Below are positions 3,001-62,446 of a stretch of DNA of 64,000 nt, piece by piece. How positions within the stretch are numbered: position 1 is the stretch's first letter; every line of letters starts with the position of its first letter. Under the pieces are notes generated by a model that had not been told where the DNA came from, searched no databases, and saw only the letters and a list, made by a program, of their open reading frames with translations. The stretch is from Antedon mediterranea (Eukaryota > Echinodermata > Crinoidea > Comatulida > Antedonidae), in assembly GCF_964355755.1 (NCBI RefSeq), contig NC_092671.1:5715001-5779000 (forward strand). Direction: 5' to 3'. The position numbers were made by a program, and so were the translations under genes.

Positions 3001-6000
3001 CTCTTTCAACTACAGTACCATAATAACAGATAATAGAAGAAAACAATAAGGAAACTAACAGAAAAAATGAAAGAAAATATTTTCAAAAGAAATATATTTT
3101 ATGTACGACACTAGACAAACATAAATTATTTCTCACTGTTATGTTTGTAAATGTCTGTCTGATTTGTAGTAGCAAATGAATTTAACAATTTTTTTTTATC
3201 AACTAAAAATTTAGATGGTAAAAAGTTTCACAAAAAAGCTTCTTCAGAAGATTGACTTTTACCATCTACGTTTTTATTTCAATTGGCTTGTTCAAAAGAA
3301 ATTTCCAAATTCATAACCTCATGAATACATTATTTAAATACCTCTTTCGTAATGGTCGTAAATATCGCCAGTGTAAGTTGGAGTAAGCCCGCCAGCACTA
3401 TCCTTGTTGAAAGAGCTTAATTGACATGTTTTCTGATTACGATTGTAATCAAAACTTAAACATGTGAAGCCAGTTCCCTCAATACACCTTTTGGCACAGT
3501 CACTTGGATAGACATCCGTCAGCACAATGTCATCCTTCCCACTGATGAAAGCATAATGATACGAGTCAAAGTATTTGTTGATGTATTCTGTAATTAAAGA
3601 AAAAAGAATTTGAGTGAGTGGCTGAGTGGTTAAAACAGTGGGACTGTAATTAAATAGCCATAACATCGGCAAGGGTTCGAGGCTCACTGTCTCCATGGTT
3701 TTGGTGGTAGAAGAACAAGTCTTCTTGGATAAGGACTATAAACCGTAGGTCCAATGTACACATTTAGCTTATGTGCACTTTAGGGAATCTAATACATCTT
3801 TCGAGATGAGTAGGGGGGTCTTAACCCAGTGTACTAGTACATCACAGTATAAATCAAAATATTTCAATTCAACAAGTGGAGGCCCAAATGGTTTTTTATC
3901 ATAAAAAGGAAAATGAAAGAACAACGCAGAAGTGGAGGCCCAACTGGTGGGCAGAAGTGGAGGCCCAACTGGTGGGCAGAAGTGGAGGCCCAACTGGTAG
4001 GCAGAAGTGGAGGCCCAACTGGTGGGCAGAAGTGGAGGCCCAACTGGTGGGCAGAAGTGGAGACCCAACTGGTGGGCAGAAGTGGAGGCCCAACTGGTGG
4101 GCAGAAGTGGAGGCCCAACTGGTGGGTAGAAGAGTGGAGAGTTTAAAATCATAGTTCATTGATGATATATATGATGAATATAAATAATTTAAAATGCATG
4201 TAGACAATTGTAATATTCAATTGAAAAAAAAAATGAGTTTGGAGCTTATATGACCAGTATTGGTAACAAGAAAAACGTAAGTTTAATGTATTCAATCTGC
4301 AGCAATACTGTTTCGCTCTTATTAGATCTCGTCAGTGCAGCTCAGATTTTAACATAAAAATGAAAAACATAATTGGCTCAATATATAGCATGAGTCAGGT
4401 AGTACAGTATGTGGAACATGGTAAACTGATTATAAACACAAGAGTACACAAACTCAACGTGACCTATGACATTTTCCTTACTATCTTTTTTGCAGATATA
4501 TCCAATAAAATTCTTTTCACATTTATGATCATTCCAGACTCCCTGATTTACAATTAATTCTCCACAATTTTCACCGCCTGAAAATGGCCCATCGTTGTTT
4601 GGTTCACCTGTAAACAAATTATATGTAAATTACTTTAAAGCCTTGGTCAAAAAGAATGCTATCATAATACTGTTTTTTATTTATATTATTATTTTATAGA
4701 AAGTTGCATACACATACCACTCTTCCAGTTAAAGTATACAAATGGTTCCTTATCGGTCCATTCCCAGCCACCCTCAGTCGTCAGATCATTGGCTCCTATC
4801 CACATTGTAGGCTCAGTGACACCTCTCAAAAGAGCTATTTGAAAAAGTACATAAAATAAATAAATACAGTACTCTGTGATCAAAATCATGAAAAAGATAA
4901 TTATTATTATGTATTAAAATAAGAATTAAAAAGAATTTTCAAAGAAAAAATTAAAATAAAAATATTTAAAGATGTATTGTCCTCCTAAAAAAATAAGAGT
5001 TTACAATTTTTTGATGAATATGCCGTTTTAATGTCACATAATAGTTATTCGCTTTGACCAAAAACCGGATTGAAAAAAAATTAATTTCCTGACAAAAATG
5101 TAATTTAAAGAAAAAAATAATCTTTATTTTTTATGTTTTTTGGGGACAATACATCTTTAACTAATTCTCTTTTATTAAATTAGCTACTGTAGTTTATTCT
5201 CCAATCAAATTCTTCCTTTGGTTTATTTATGGGAGCGGTTTAGATAATCTAACCAATCAGAGCATTTTTAGTGACAAATGTAACATGTTGATTGGTTAAT
5301 TTCCAGTTACTTACAAATAAGGAAGTTTTCTTCTTCATACGATGTAATACTAACAAGGTCACCGCCTTCAATCAGACACTGGTCTCTTGCGCCAGCCCAG
5401 TCCTTATAGTCAGATGGTCTTAAAAGGTAACACTTGCCAGAGGCGCTATCATACACCCAATCAATGCCACAACGGGTGTCAAAAGCACCTGATAAAAGTT
5501 TCAAAATAATCATTCACTTATTTTTCATCAGTTTTTATAAGAATATACACCTAATAATATTTCTCGAAGCTCTGTCTAAACAAATATGGTAGTGATATGC
5601 CCAAATACGGTAGTGATTTGATATCATCATGTCCATATATGGGCACATCATATTTTATGGTAGTGATATGCCCAAATACGGTAGTGAAATGACATCATCA
5701 TGTCCATATATGGGACCATCACATTTTTTGACAGGGCTTAAGGCATATTTGTTAATAGCAATCTCAATGACTGTCTAAATATCTATTCATAGTACAAAAA
5801 TACAGTATACAATGGTTCACAACATAAGCCTATTAGTAATTAGTAGTTTTTTTTTGTGAAACATACCAGTTGGCAGAGGTGTTGCTGTGTGTACAGTATT
5901 GTCATCAGCTGAAATAATAACAATAATAATATTAATACAACTGTAATAGCCACCAAGAGTAAACAAAATTAGAAGATGAATAGCAAGACTCTTTTCTGAG

Positions 6001-12000: not shown

Positions 12001-15000
12001 AGTGCTGCTGCACATTAGGTGCGCGTCCCATGTTGCTTTATTGAAAACACAAACAATGTATTACAATGGAATAACACTTAAATGTATAACACACCCTATT
12101 ACTAATAATAAAAACCAAGATTCGATAGTACAGTATGTAAATGAGATATAAATATTCGGCAATACCGTACGTAAATTATTATTGCAATACTGTATAAAGA
12201 TTCGATAGTATGTAAACAAGATATAAATATTTGGCAATACCGTACGTAAATTATTATTTAATGCAATACTGTATAAAGATTCGATTAAGTCTGTAAATGA
12301 GATATCAAGATTCGGCAATACCGTACGTAAATTATTAATGCAATACTGTATAAAATTCGATAGTTAAATGTAAATGAGATATAAATATTCGGCAATACCG
12401 TACGTAAATTATTATTGCAATACTGTATAAAATTCGATAGTTAAATGTGAATGAGATATAAATATTCGGCAATACCGTACGTAAATTATTATTGCAATAC
12501 TGTATAAAATTCGATAGTATGTAAATGAGATATAAAGATTCGGCAATACCGTACGTAAATTATTATTATTGCAATACTGTATAAGGATTCAATAGTATAT
12601 AAACGAGATATAAAGATTCGGCAATACCGTATACGTAAATTGCAATACTGTATAAGGATTCAATAGTATGTAAACGAGATATAAAGGTTCGGCAAAATAT
12701 ATTTCGATATATGTATTAGTTAATAGTAAATACAAATAAAATATACATTTATTTATCGGCAGGCAAACTTAATTATTATAGAAATATAAAGATTTGATAG
12801 TACATGAGTTGGCTTATATTTATTTAGCTGTAACTCAACTCGCCATAGGCCATGGCGTTGACAACGACAATCAAAGATTAAAGCGCACATGGCGTTCCAT
12901 ACAAATGACGATATTAAACTGGCGGCCGCTTTGGTTGGCGGCCGCTTCGACCATACTCCGCCTAGTGTACTGCTGCAAAGCTACCAAAAGTTTGACATCA
13001 TTTGTTTTTACTTATTTACTGCTACTCCTACTATTCTATAACTATAGCCTTTAGTAATAGCCTAAAGTACTAGAAGGGTTAGGTTAAGGCTAGCCTCTGC
13101 TATGCCTACTAGGTAATACCACTGACTAGCTAGGCCTAGCTAGGCACCACCTGTCCTTGCTGCTCTGGAGGAGGATCCAGGCCTAGCTAGTAGCCGGCCT
13201 ACCTAACTAGCTAGGGCCTACCTAGCCTAAACAAATCATGGAAAAAACACACAGTACCTTCGGGTCTTTGGCAAATAAAACTTAATGTCTGCGAACATGG
13301 TGCAGTACTCCATTTACCAACACTGTTAACTGTGTCAAGAACTTCAGCACAATTACCACCTGATGCAAAATATCTAAGAATAAAAGCAGACAACTATTTA
13401 TTTACCTTATTTCTTCCTTTTAAATTTCGTGCGTGTGTGGTTACACACGTGACATGCTGCCAATCAGTACGCCCTCTGTAGTTTAAAGATGTATTGTCCC
13501 TTTGACTAATTCCCAAAACAAATTTTGTTTTTAATTTCGAAAAAAAGTGGGTCATTTTGAAGTATCATAATAGTTATTAACTTTCACCAAAAATTAGTAA
13601 AAAAAAAAATAATTTAACCGAAATACAGATGTTTTTTTGTTCAAAGAATAACTTTGACTTCCAGTCAAAGTTTTCAATCAAAACATATCCCATAATGCAA
13701 TGCGCTTGTTTGGCTAATCTGTATGCATAATCATAAAACTTCCTTGCAATCTGTGTGAAAACACCTTCTCAACCGTGATGAGTTGTAAACAATCCTAATT
13801 AGCATCATGCATAATGCATACTCATGGTTTGAAATCTTTGTTTACTTTCGCTTGCGACGATTCTCAGACGAAATGTAATCTAATTAATTTACCTGTTAAT
13901 TACGTAAACTGTTGTTTTTGGCTCGAATTTTCGACTTAAAGTGAATAACTTTAATATTACTTTGATATGGCCAATTTAAATTTAGAATATTTTTTTTTCA
14001 TTTTTTGTGTTTCAAGGGACAATACATCTTTAAAAACTCTGAACTTCAATTACGGTTGGTTCCCGGCGACGGTGTTTGGAAATAGAACAAAACTACTACG
14101 TAAATTTAAAATATAAATAAAGCGAATCTTAGAGATTCCTTACTTGTTGTTTGGTTCTGTAATTGCCCAATTAGTGTATGATCCAAGAGATGTATCATCA
14201 CTCCATTTGTAGTCACCCTCCGTGTCACTATTCTATATTTTTAAAAAAATGGAAAACGATACTTATTACAAAGGTTCTTAATTTATTATAAGCAGGTTAT
14301 AAAAACAAAAGATCGATTGTGTTTATTTGTTTTACTAATTAAACATGTAGGACTGTTTATACAGATTAAGAATAAATGAAAACTAAAAATTGGCTTACAG
14401 AATCCGACAATCCGATCCAATAGGTCCGTCGGTAACGTGACGTCAGCACGTTTAGGTAATCCTGTGTGTTTTGGTTCTCAACTTTGACTAACTGTCCGCC
14501 AACTAATTCACATTCGCTTGCTGCTCTGTCCCATGAGCGTTGTTCATCAACAAATAAGTAACATTTGCCGTTGGAGTTTGACCATCCATTTGATTCATCA
14601 CATTTTATTTCAACATCTGAATAATTTATAAGTACCAGTTTTTTACACATCTATTATATTTAGCTATATAAAAAACATTATTTATCTATATAATATAAAC
14701 TTGAGTCACCCACAACTAACTGTGGCCGGCCATCACCATATACAGTATTACGGTAGTTATATACCGTAGGATAATGTATTTCTATGTTAATGATATCATC
14801 ATTCATTATCGTCATCATCGTCGCCGCCGCTGTCCTAAAATTCCTGAACTTATAAACGTCAAAATATTGTTATCACCACAACTAATATCACCATCATCAT
14901 CATCATCATCATCATAAAGCGTGGTTCCCACTAGCAACGCAACGCAAGGACGTAACGCAACGCAAGTGAATTGACCAATCACAAGCGATGGCTTATTCGC

Positions 15001-21500: not shown

Positions 21501-24500
21501 ATTCATACTGCCACAGTCTGCCTTATTTGGTTCGTTCTGTGGATTGTCTATATTCCAGCTGGTATAGTCAAGATCAATGTCCTGCACCCATTGGAAATTT
21601 CCATCTCGTTTAATGTCTAAAAGAAAATGGAGATATCATATTTAAAATGTTGTAGAAGGCAGAAGAAGTAGATCTCAAAAGGTACTGTATGAGGGGTAAA
21701 CTACTGTAATTCAAGATAATCTTAGTGAAAGGTTCATGAGCAGTTTATGATCAGAAATTATTGGCATTACAAAAGCTAAATATGGTAACTAGGTCGGTAC
21801 TATGTGGTAATTGGCAATGGAAGACAATATTCTTTGTAAGAAATATTGAAAACACACGTTTTACCTGAAAGCCCAAACCAAATATTCTGTCTCACATTTC
21901 TCCAGAATTCCGGGAATAAAGTTGCAATAAAAAGATTTTCACCATCGCTATAAAGAATGATTTAATTAATTAAAACAAAATTGTACTTTCTACAGAATAG
22001 CAAGTGCACACAATAGAAATAATAAGCTTTTTCATTTGTTATGTGTTATATTGTTATCTAAGCTGACATAAACCTCTGACCAAGCCTGTATAAACTTCTG
22101 CTTCAGTTATTTATGTAAGAAGTAATAATAGTAATACCTGGTGATTGTAATTAAATAACCTCCCTGGGCCTCACAGAAACTTTTTGCATCTATCCAAGTT
22201 CTTTTATTCATATTTGATTGATAGCACTGGCCATTGTAGTATTTCCATCCCGACGAACAAGTACCTTAAAACAGTAAAACATTAGAAAGAAATCTAAGAA
22301 GCATGGAACAAATGTCAGTTACTCTGAGACACTGATTGTATATTTGCATTGACAACATGGTATATAGAGCTAGCTAGCCTAAGAATTATGAACCACTTTA
22401 GTGGCCTTACCTTCTCTGGCTTCACACATGTAGTTCTTTGCTAGGTAGCAAGGTGCTGTCACCCATAAACCGTCACTTGATATGTCATAATTCTGCATCT
22501 GTGCACAATTTCCACCATTGCTATAGTACCTAATAAAACAAACAGTAAGGAAGATATTCTATTACTATTCTAATACTAATTCTAGTGTACAATTTTGCTT
22601 CTCTATCAATTTTAAGACAAGTTCTTAGATATTATATTGATGGTGGTGATGGCATCTTTTTATCTACTCTACCTGGTGTCTGGCTGGTTGTTGTCCCATT
22701 TCATGTAATCTGCAGGACTGCGATCAGTCCAATAGAATGAGCCTGCATTATTTGACTCCTGTTCAGAATAATAATTAATTAATTAAGAATTAATAAACAA
22801 AAAGAGAAAATTCACAATTTACTAATCTATATTTTAGAATCTTTACCATGTAGGACGATCTTCGGCAAACTGTAGGTCTAAATCTGAACGGCGGCTTGAG
22901 AAATTGGAAAAAAAATTATTAAGGAATCAATAGGCCTACATAACAAAAACAAGCATGACATACCTTGTCTGTTAAACCAATCCACATTCCCATCCCCTTA
23001 AATTGTTGCAACATGTCATTAACAAAATTCTGTTCATCGTCTGAATTGATGCTGATGAGGTGTCCATTGAGTAGAGTGCAGAATGTCTCTGCCTCTGTCC
23101 AAGTCTGAAGCTCAACATTCCTCCACAAGTAGCATTTATTGTCATAATTAATCCAGCCATTACGCTCATCACATTCAACATCCACATCTAATGGTAAAAA
23201 TTGAAAGAGATAATTAGTAAAATACTTAATGAAACACCATCATTTTGGTACACTGTGTGTAAACTCTGGAGATTAGCAAGGCAATGTGAAAGGCGTATCA
23301 AGCACCTTTATTAAAATGATTTTAGGCCACATAAACAAAATATCATAAAACTTACAATCTTTGGAACAGATGTAAGACTGTAGTGTTGTAGAACAACCTT
23401 CATCATTCCACTGCCCACCTCTGTCGGTGTTAATCTCAACACAGTCCTCACCAGCTCGATAATCATCTGGTTGTCCAGGCTGCCAATTACTAGAAAAGAA
23501 AAGTCACATATAAAATGTTATGGAAGGAAGCAGTTACTGTGGTTCTTGACTTAGTTGTGAATGTTATGGAAGGAAGCAGTTACTGTGGTTCAAGACTTAG
23601 TTGTGAATTTTATGGAAGGATCAAGCAGTTACTGTGGTTCTTGACTTAGTTGTGAATGTTATGGAAGGAAGCAGTTACTGTGGTTCTTGACTTAGTTGTG
23701 AATGTTATGGAAGGAAGCAGTTACTGTGGTTCTTGACTTAGTTGTGAATTTTATGGAAGGATCAAGCAGTTACTGTGGTTCTTGACTTAGTTGTGAATTT
23801 TATGGAAGGATCAAGCAGTTACTGTGGTTGTTTACTTGACGTAGTTGACACTTGTCATATCGATGAGTATAAACGGATCTAAAGGAAAGGGAAAGTCAAC
23901 AATACTATAAATAAAAATAGCTATTATACATCCATCCTCTTTTTCTGTTTTATTACTTCAGCCCATATCGAACATGTTAAATCACGAGTAACCATGGGAC
24001 TTAGGTAGTAGAAATGGGAATTTAGGGAATTAGAAAAAGTAGTACCTGAGATTAGTAGTAGATAGTATAGTAGTAATAATAAACATTTTGATTCCATGAA
24101 AACTGAATCTACATACGCTTTTGCAGGATCAAGCGGTGTGTTGTCCACCCATATAAAATTTCCTTCACCTCTGGTATCCTGAAGACCTATCCAGTACAAG
24201 GAATGAGTAAAACCAAGCAGATCTTGCAAAAATTCCTAGCAAAAAAAAAAAACATATGTAATTATTATAAGAAGAGATGCTTTCAAAAATATATTAGTGA
24301 TTATGAATAAATATCTGATATAAAATTGGAGGTAAATTTAGAGATTTAGAAAAGTTGGTTGTTCTAGTAAAAAGTAACAAACTTTTATTTTAGAAATATT
24401 GTTTACTAACATTTTGTTCTTTGTTTCTGATGATGGCTAAGTCAGCATCCATTGACTTGCATATATCCCTAGCCTGATTCCAAGATTTAAACTGCTGTGA

Positions 24501-28298: not shown

Positions 28299-42590
<14,292 letters not shown>

Positions 42591-48575: not shown

Positions 48576-48889
48576 GAAAAAAAGCTAATATATAATATGA
48601 GAATTATGAAACATTAGGCATGACCTACCCGCAGAGATAGTTCAGGTCGCTCACGTTCTTAGACATTTTCTGAGTTCCATTCCCACTAATTATTAATGTT
48701 GTAACTTTAGGTTAAGTCGTATTATTGACGCTGTTAAGGTAAAAAGTTTAAAATCGTAATTATTAGGCCTCTCTTAATATTTGTCTTGACTGACCTTAAA
48801 AACAGATCAGCAAACATGCCACCTGAAATATCCAACAAATATACAAGAACGTTATAATGTTGTGTGAATAAAATATTTACATTAAGTAT

Positions 48890-49240
48890 TAGGCCTAACA
48901 TCGAGTTTAGATTAAATTATTGTGAAGGAATTTAATTTACAACCCGTTGCCCATTGTTCAGAGAGGACATCTGGTAGAAGCTACCTTGCTAGTATCAAAG
49001 GATTTGATAGGGAAGTTTATCTATATCTAGTGCACAAAGTAGAATGAAGAACCCGAGATACACACATTAGGCCTAACATCGAGTTTAGATTAAATTATTG
49101 TGAAGGAATTTAATTTACAACCCGTTGCCCATTGTTCAGAGGACATCTGGTAGAAGCTACCTTGCTAGTAGCAAAGGATTTGATAGGGAAGTTTATCTAT
49201 CTAGTGCACAAAAATAAAGAACCCGAGATACACAAATTAA
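48890..49240. repeat. Tandem duplication, period 178 bp
   Basis: Sequence starting TAGGCCTAACATCGAGTTTA at 48890 recurs at 49068 with small deletions. No gene is seen in it. Confidence 0.9.
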
Positions 49241-58497: not shown

Positions 58498-61400
58498 CAA
58501 TTCGAAATTATAGAGTAGGCCTACTACTGTGGCAATCAATCAATGTCTTGATGAATTTACAATTTCAATAAATACTGTGAAGAAATCAAGGTTATTTTTA
58601 ACCATGGACACAATGTTATCAAACACGAAGGTCCAATCAATTAATTGTGCGTGTCTTTAAGATAAATAACTTGATTAAAAAATAAGTTAATTAAAAAAAA
58701 TGTAGTGTAAAGTACACGTACACACAAAAGAAGCTACCAACGTGTGTATTGTGTGTAAATTAGTTGTGAAGAGAAGGCAAACGCTACATTTCATCTAGGC
58801 ATGACCAATTTCATTTCTGGGTTTAAATTAATATCTCTTGATTAAATTAATTCATTTTTGATGAGCAAACCCCAAAACAAGCTCAATCAAGTTGTACACT
58901 CAATGGGTTTATGGTCTGGTTGCCTGATAGATCCATAAATAACAAAAAACACCGCTCATCTCACAATAACTACCGTACTGTCTACAGGCATCTCAATATT
59001 CATAGCCTCTTTTTTCCCAGACGTGCTTTGGGGTGTGCGCATGTCCAGTCCGGGTTTTCAGATTATAAGTTACCGCATGGTAACTGCTTTATAATGTTTC
59101 CATTCTCTTTAAAATAACTTCCTAAAGGAGTGGCGCGAAACGTCACGCCACCGCACAATGTCATCCCGCTGTTGTCTGTGTAGGCTAACACTAGTAACTG
59201 TTGCATGTCAACAAAATCTGCCGATGATTGAACCTGAAATCTTCATACCTTGATCATGCTATCTATAAATTTTACCGAAGGTTTACAATTTCATTTCAGA
59301 TAAAGTTATGAATTTATGACAGGAGTGATATATTGAATTGCAATCGGATGATGCTCCTTTTATCCACATCGAACGTTAAACTTACGATGTTGGAATTTGT
59401 CTATGGATCTCTTTGCCTATAATATTAAGATTACGAGATTACATGACATTACTATCTTAAGATTCCGATGAAGTCTCAACGGTGATTATCCTGATGTTAG
59501 GTGTAAAACATTTGTCAAAGTGTTATTTCCCGTTGATCCTAATCCGCGAACCAAATAAGGCATGTTCCCGTTGCCTCGGTACCTCGCCGTAATATAATAT
59601 AATGAATAATAATAATAATATACTGAAGTGTGTTGGAATAAAAATAATTCCAACAAACTATATAAGATAAAATACGATCTTTCGTCAATTTCTACAAAAA
59701 ATGCCAGTTAAAGAAACGTGCGCGCGTAAAATCAGTTTGCGTTTTAGTTAAAGTTACGTGAAACCCTATTTTAAGGAATACCTTTTCGATCCAACGATGT
59801 TCCCCTTTAATACAGTAGAGATGTACCGGAATATAGGTTGGCTTAGTGATCTGTATATTTCTTCTCGTTTTACTGATATAGGGATGTCGCCCTTTCTTTA
59901 GATTGCCAAGTTAATTTTGATAATCTGTTTTTTACAGGACCGAATTGCGATTCGTCAAATGGGAAAAAGGTAGATGGATTCAGCTGTGGTGATGGACAAT
60001 GCATATGGAAAAGCTTGGTAATAATCTACTTATAACTACTGCTAGTATAAGATATATCGATAAGGATCGAAGAAAACTTAATAGTACAGTAGATGAATTT
60101 ACTACACGCTGTAAAGTCATCTACTTACGTTAAGTAACTCTGTAGAGTCAGTATTGATTAGTTTTCAGTTTCAGTCTTTTTTATAAAGATAGGTGTCTAT
60201 TTCAATACAGTTTAAGCTTAAATTTAGTTTTTATTGGTTTTGTTATGATACTGTACAGCAACGCAACTGTTGTTTTCCTAAACACGTTTAAAACTGTGTT
60301 TTTTCAGCAACCACGCGATGGAGAACAAGACTGTTGTAATAGATGACTATTTCAATACAGTTTAAGCTTAAATTTAGTTTTTATTGGCTTTGTTATGATA
60401 CAGCAACGCAACTGTTGTTTTCCTAAACAAGTGTAATACTGTGTTTTTTCAGCAATGCGATGGACAACAAGACTGTTTTAATCGATTTGATGAAGAAGAC
60501 ACGTTATGCGGTGTTGATACGTACGTTTGTAAAGAAGACGAGTTTGATTGCGGAGACGGCTCTTGCATCAGTGCCTCCAAAAGATGTAACAATAAAAGAG
60601 AATGTAAAAATGGGGATGATGAGAAAAATTGTGACGATATGTATTGTAAGTCGACTATTTAATGTTATCTATCGATTGAATATTGTTAATTCGGTCCAAC
60701 AATTTGTAGGTTAATTATCCAATAATTTAATCCGAATGATTTATTAACTTTATTATTATAGCTTTGAAAACAAGATCGTCATTAGTACGGTGTCGCATGA
60801 CATACAATGTAAACACATACCGTATTCAGTACAGCTGTGTTTAAAGAATAAATACTATTTAGTCTCATTGCTCTAAATTCAGATCCGTTAAGTATAAAAA
60901 AACAAACATCTCTGTGTATAGTGGTATTGGTACACATTTCTTGATAAAACTGTAGGCCGACATTTAATCATCTTTAATGAATACGGGTCCAAACGATGTA
61001 TACAGCCAAGCTTAACGTTGTTATTGTTTAATATTATTTTACCATTTCAGTAATCCGACCAAATTGTGACGAGACCAATGGTAAACCTGTCAATGGAATC
61101 GATTGCGGTGACGGTCAATGTATATTAACAAACCAGGTTAGATAAGCAACATAAGCCTATAAATACGTTTGTTTATGATATTTATGATTTGTTTTATACA
61201 AAGAACACCATCTTTTTAAATGAGGGACTAACTAAAAAAACAGTATACTCACAGTAGCACAGCACAGTAGTATAGTTGAAATACGTACAATATACGAATA
61301 AATCCGAATGAAGATCCGAGTGAATATCCGAATGTAGACGTAACAACGAGCATAACGTATATTAGTTTCTTCTTACATTCTCTTCTCCTATCATTTTTGC

Positions 61401-62446
61401 TGTGTAACGATGTTTTTGTTTATGATTTACATTTGTTTATATACTCAAGACCACCATCTTTTTAAATGAGAGATTAACTAAAAAAAATATTAGTAGTAGT
61501 AGTAGTACTCACAGTAGAACTGTTGCATAGTTTAAATGCGAATATATCCGAATGAATATCCGAATGAATATCCGAATGAATATCCGAATGAATATCCGAA
61601 TGAATATCCGAATGTTGACGTCGTAACAACGACCTGTTGAAACTGCAACAAGAAAGTGCTGCGCAAAGGTATATTGGTTTCTTTAGCTTACTTTCTCTTC
61701 TCCTATCATTTTAGCTGTGTAACGATGTTCAGGATTGTTTTAACCGGATGGACGAATCATCTTCGACCTGCCCTGACAAGTTTGCAAATCTTTGTACTAA
61801 AACAGAATTTCAATGTGGTGATTCTAAGCAGTGCGTACCGTTAACAGACAGATGCGACGGGAATAAAGATTGTAGAAATAACGCTGATGAATACAAGTGC
61901 TCCAACAAAAAATCGTGTGGTAAAGGCAAAATTGACTGTGGCGATGGTGTTTGTTACAAACTAGATAAAGTAAGTTATCCCTTAACAAGCGTGACTTACA
62001 AGCGATGGATTATCTGAATTTCGCTTGTGATTGGTCAACTTGCCTGAGTTGCGCTTACGTTCTTGCGTTGCGAACTAGTGGGAACCAAGCTTTAGGACGC
62101 AAGGTCGTAAGCGCAACAAAAACGTGTTGATCAATGACAAAGTGAGTTCGGATAATATATTGCTTGTGATTGGCCAATTACTTGCGTTACGTAGCAACCA
62201 AAAGATAGTTTCCATCGCAAGGACTAGGGGTAACGCAAATAATTTGACATGTCACAAAATAAATCACATCTGCACAAATTTAAATAGTGAAAACTAATGA
62301 CCCCAACTATCACGGATTTTCTCATCTTTATTGTTTCATATTATTTATTGTAATAATTGTAATTTTCTGTCTCTCCATAGTTATGCGATGGTCGACAAGA
62401 TTGTTTCAACAACTCAGATGAAAAACATTGCACACCAAATGTATAA
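53999..62446 (+). CDS. Secreted protein of five LDL-receptor class A modules
   Basis: Six exons: 53999-54068, 59938-60017, 60453-60645, 61051-61136, 61715-61969, 62381-62446; 750 nt and 249 residues, all phases matching. Residues 1-20 are a signal peptide (MKIQITLACLLAVVVYCSG). Five LDLa modules follow, at about 27-69, 76-111, 119-162, 170-205 and 211-245, each with six Cys and an acidic Ca-binding end such as CDGQQDCFNRFDEE or CDGRQDCFNNSDE. Module 2 reads CNNKREC, so its first Ca ligand is Asn instead of Asp. Nothing follows module 5 except TPNV, and there is no membrane segment. LDLa modules bind ligands in a Ca-dependent way, but the partner here is unknown. Modules 1, 3 and 5 are split by a phase-0 intron just before the CDG-type half. 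The first intron is about 5.9 kb. Confidence 0.9.
55784..57100 (+). other. Possible alternative 3' exons of the LDLa gene
   Basis: Segments 55784-55814 (phase 1-2) and 56640-56664 (phase 2-0) have AG/GT borders and would splice in frame to the signal-peptide exon. A strong polypyrimidine acceptor at about 57072 would then add ILIGNTVM and stop. This would yield a secreted peptide of about 50 residues instead of the LDLa protein. The phases fit, but the segments are very short, so chance is a serious alternative. Confidence 0.2.
58435..58494. repeat. (TA)30 microsatellite
   Basis: Sixty bases of pure TA in intron 1 of the LDLa gene. Confidence 0.97.
60308..60346 (+). pseudogene. Decayed duplicate of the start of LDLa exon 3
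   Basis: Preceded by TTTTTTCAG, this segment copies the opening of exon 3 (CAACCACGCGATGG against CAATGCGATGG) and then reads into TGA at 60344-60346. It belongs to a 150-bp tandem duplication (60197 repeats at 60347) covering the intron end and exon start. It is not usable as an exon because of the stop and the lost first Cys. Confidence 0.7.
61400..61414 (+). pseudogene. Decayed duplicate of the start of LDLa exon 5
   Basis: CTGTGTAACGATGTT repeats the first 15 nt of exon 5 (61715), inside a degenerate intron duplication (about 61173-61414 against 61425-61729). The acceptor has become TG, so it should not splice. Confidence 0.65.
61545..61613. repeat. 12-bp tandem repeat, about 6 copies
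   Basis: GAATGAATATCC repeated just upstream of LDLa exon 5. The sister intron copy at 61,300 has only two or three diverged units. Confidence 0.9.
61983..62240. mobile_element. MITE family C, nested or rearranged
   Basis: Right end AACTAGTGGGAACCAAGCTT with inner CGTTCTTGCGTTGC arms, then a second run with GCAAGGTCGTAAGCGCAAC. It lies in the last LDLa intron, only 13 bp after exon 5. Confidence 0.65.

Follow-up and report, generated by a model that had tools for sequence, protein, structure and literature searches.

Towards one end of the window (the whole 64-kb stretch of DNA that was analysed) lies an LDL-receptor-type cysteine-rich gene, five exons of which are backed by splice signals, reading frame and conserved cysteines. 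Exon 2 (59938-60017, plus strand like all features of the gene given below) was defined by its translation, splice signals and Pfam LDLa match; it encodes PNCDSSNGKKVDGFSCGDGQCIWKSL, the A (first) half of one LDLa module, and is entered in phase 1 and left in phase 0. Exon 3 (60453-60645) encodes the second (B) half-module and one full LDLa module. Exon 4 (61051-61136, phase 1 in and phase 0 out) opens the next split module with an A half, exon 5 (61715-61969; 255 nt, phase 0 at both ends) a B half, a full LDLa module and another A half, and exon 6 (62381-62446) the last B half and the stop codon. When joined, exons 2-6 encode 225 residues, in which the Pfam LDLa profile (PF00057) matched five stretches with 130.7 bits, compared with a gathering cut-off of 24.1. 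The layout, with intron phases in parentheses, is A (0) B+LDLa (1) A (0) B+LDLa+A (0) B. All three phase-0 introns are located five residues past the third cysteine of the module. A simple scan upstream of exon 2 revealed no convincing signal-peptide exon 1.

Two of the introns contain tandem duplications reaching into the following exon. The first involves intron 2 and exon 3. With the most economical junction it is a head-to-tail arrangement of an extra copy of 150 nt (60191-60340), consisting of the end of intron 2 and 33 nt of exon start, and a working copy of 142 nt (60341-60482); the duplicated unit thus takes in 112-117 nt from intron 2 and reaches 30-33 nt into exon 3. The copies are approximately 93% identical over the aligned bases (9 differences in 142 sites, with gaps of 5 nt and 3 nt), and the local alignment score was 221, whereas none of 500 shuffles exceeded 25. 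The exon-start remnant (60308-60340, 33 nt) pairs with 60453-60482 of the working copy; over 30 sites, three substitutions and one 3-nt gap separate it from the start of exon 3. This 3-nt difference in length stems from 60308-60316, where the extra copy reads CAACCACGC and the working exon has CAATGC; it keeps the frame and replaces the first cysteine codon of the B half. The alignment bore out the 150-bp spacing and the 60197/60347 registration given in the original prediction, as well as its claim that an intron end was copied together with the start of exon 3.

The second duplication consists of exactly abutting head-to-tail copies at 61168-61414 and 61415-61729, which are approximately 93% identical in their non-repetitive blocks (score 211, shuffle maximum 33). 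The extra copy (247 nt) contains most of intron 4, which starts at 61137, and 15 nt of exon start: the remnant 61400-61414, CTGTGTAACGATGTT, matches 61715-61729 over exactly 15 nt. The working copy (315 nt) includes a 12-bp minisatellite, (ATATCCGAATGA)n, present in 5.9 copies at 61544-61614, which accounts for part of the length difference between the units. The 15 nt of exon 5 had been anticipated correctly, but what had been described as the end of the next intron is almost the whole of an intron, and this intron separates exons 4 and 5 rather than directly following exon 3. Intron 5, the third of the homologous introns, has no acceptor duplication; it carries a 71-nt inverted repeat (61998-62167, arms 73% complementary and 28 nt apart).

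Alignment detected no sequence similarity between the units of the two duplications, indicating that they arose in separate events, as had been proposed. It had also been proposed that the second was the older one. This was not borne out by the divergence of the copies, which is alike: 9 of 142 sites differ in the first duplication and 10 of 150 in the second (Fisher p = 1), and the K2P distances are 0.066 ± 0.022 for the first and 0.075 ± 0.034 and 0.065 ± 0.030 for two clean blocks of the second. Length changes are more numerous in the second duplication. In the exon structure described above, both duplications cross the acceptors of B-half exons, the 'CDG' type of the original prediction. 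Each duplicated region was found once in the 354-Mb assembly, and neither a close paralogue nor a second allele of the gene was found, other LDLa matches being at most 56% identical.

Tandem Repeats Finder missed both two-copy duplications, and the base rate of such structures was therefore estimated by self-BLAST of the 64-kb window and of 15 arbitrarily placed 10-kb stretches. The 15 stretches contained six two-copy tandem duplications and 13 arrays. The window contained four two-copy duplications and four arrays, and in addition the intron 4 duplication, which self-BLAST missed owing to its gaps and minisatellite. Pooled, this amounts to 11 two-copy cases in 214 kb (approximately one per 19 kb), or 28 tandem structures when arrays are included, although these are small numbers and the window, as the site of the finding, does not count as an independent sample. 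Small tandem duplications are thus common in this genome. From these figures the chance that a given acceptor is spanned is approximately 0.9%, and that two of five acceptors are spanned approximately 0.1% per gene; for an assumed 20,000 genes with five acceptors each, this predicts roughly 19 genes in which two acceptors are spanned, before selection. Other LDLa genes were not enriched: one sample had a single case in 30 kb, another a single case in 32 kb, the latter within a coding frame that is itself repetitive. On the minus strand, a C-type-lectin-like gene contains two copies (276-423 and 446-594) that are 85% identical and 22 nt apart. They share ACTTG/GTTAGA, the end of an exon and its donor, and this apparently donor-spanning duplication would be a weaker parallel, as its exon overlap is only 5 nt. 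Elsewhere in the window a 178-nt head-to-tail tandem duplication (48888-49239, 94% identical) lies outside identified exons, and self-BLAST found minisatellite-type arrays at 3926-4140, 12117-12695, 23514-23837 and 40132-40387 (best offsets 67-92 nt). Arrays of this type are common in the sampled genome.

Duplicates created during assembly, by mis-joining of haplotypes or reads, are usually nearer to identical than those seen here. The copies at the two acceptors differ by about 7% and by indels, they abut head-to-tail, and similar structures occur across the genome, all of which makes an assembly artefact highly improbable.

Neither extra copy contains a complete exon, the exon body and the donor being absent from both. 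If the acceptor at 60308 were used, the product would read ...CIWKSLQPRDGEQDCCNR and then terminate, with 12 codons before the stop; the remnant 60308-60340 itself reads QPRDGEQDCCNR and is followed by an in-frame TGA across the unit junction. In the extra copy of the second duplication the acceptor AG has been changed to TG, and if this site were used a stop would be met 16 codons beyond the copied exon bases. With no whole exon present, and with a stop after 12 codons in one copy and a lost AG in the other, neither of them can supply an LDLa module. These observations bear on the proposal that the duplications show how the gene gains modules, the partial half-module exons being snapshots of new exons in the making. 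Both duplications are indeed located at B-half exons of split modules, as this proposal would have it, but the copied exon parts are short (33 and 15 nt), lack exon body and donor, and are disrupted. The existing modules fit a different history. The polypeptides encoded by exons 2+3 and exons 4+5 are identical at 41 of 89 residues and have the phase-1/phase-0 intron pattern in common, which suggests that the modules arose by duplication of the whole exon pair; the third split module shares 19-20 of 40 residues with the first two. The simplest history is that the two exon pairs are old paralogues. Their duplication would long predate both small duplications and is most likely the way in which, we infer, the gene gained modules. 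Alignment against shuffles detected no similarity among the three homologous phase-0 introns, and introns 3 and 5 scored 33, slightly over the shuffle value of 31. The two small duplications thus lend no support to the suggested route of module gain and tell little about it; as snapshots of that process they are already disfavoured, and we regard this reading as most improbable.

The description of the extra copies as dead holds for their coding capacity, as shown by the stop codon and the lost AG, but need not hold for the splice site of the first. Its acceptor is intact (cag at 60305-60307). The final 15 intron nucleotides before 60308 are identical to those of the working acceptor, so that 60308 may be a decoy acceptor rather than a dead site. 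The extra copy also contains GTAATA at 60336-60341, whereas the true exon has no GT at that place. This is a possible cryptic donor, whose use would create a 28-nt exon, shift the frame and lead to a stop soon afterwards. Such features would fit a poison site at which a premature stop lowers or regulates the gene's output: the acceptor is the same as the real one, as are the 15 intron nucleotides ending in it, 60308 is closer to the donor of exon 2 than the working acceptor is, and its use would lead either to the stop after 12 codons or to the frame-breaking 28-nt exon. However, no constraint is evident in the copied exon part, with its three substitutions and 3-nt gap in 30 sites, and we consider a role of this kind unlikely. 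That a chance duplication created a new off-switch, either a regulated poison acceptor at 60308 or a 28-nt poison exon, seems more doubtful still.

The explanation that we strongly favour is that two unrelated, ordinary small tandem duplications affected two introns within a single LDLa gene and were tolerated as near-neutral intron growth. Each duplicated unit would have covered the 3' splice site of its intron by chance. In both cases the acceptor of the downstream copy is intact, and the exon that follows it is open and supplies the rest of the LDLa pattern. As this copy retains the acceptor joined to the full exon, normal mRNA could still be formed by way of the last acceptor, and with correct splicing at that site the duplications could persist as near-neutral additions to the intron, while the upstream copies decay. 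This explanation is favoured by a head-to-tail structure far from chance expectation, by the dissimilarity of the units and of the homologous introns, by the non-coding state of the upstream copies, and by the base rate of tandem duplications given above, with the lectin gene as a comparable case and other LDLa genes not enriched. Three points speak against it. Had this one gene been chosen beforehand, the prior for two spanned acceptors would be low (the approximately 0.1% estimated above); the introns hit are homologous and were hit at the same end, so that some local cause may have gone undetected; and the acceptor at 60308 is still intact, a state that selection against mis-splicing would not favour.

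Tolerated tandem duplication across a splice acceptor is an ordinary phenomenon, and the adjacent copies described here, each containing an intron end and an exon start, belong to it. Literature searches on duplicated acceptors turned up models of a general kind and no survey that matched directly. The locus provides a clean example of introns growing and acquiring second acceptors, and suggests that duplication over a 3' splice site is tolerable since correct splicing is still possible at the last copy; 60308 offers a cheap test of whether the spliceosome ignores a decoy acceptor that is recent and intact. In the closest model, that of intron gain by tandem genomic duplication, an exonic segment is copied and AGGT, present in both copies, gives rise to a new intron (PMC3443670). 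There too a short tandem duplication provides a second copy of splice-site sequence, and the spliceosome can excise one copy with the protein unchanged. The segments described here, however, span an existing intron-exon border: both units cross the 3' end of an existing intron, which grows and gains a second acceptor, and they are not cases of intron gain. Mutually exclusive exons arising by tandem exon duplication require a complete second exon (PMC6071210). The duplicated stretches resemble such cases in containing intron and exon sequence, but no whole exon was copied, and extra copies with 33 or 15 nt of exon and a stop or a lost AG offer no second exon to choose. The class 1-1 rule of module shuffling involves phase-1 borders (PMC8001218). 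The present gene, with its run of LDLa modules (PF00057) and exon pairs with phase-1 outer borders that were apparently duplicated, resembles this pattern; it differs in that three of its modules are split into half-module exons by a phase-0 intron just before x-C-(D/N)-(G/D).
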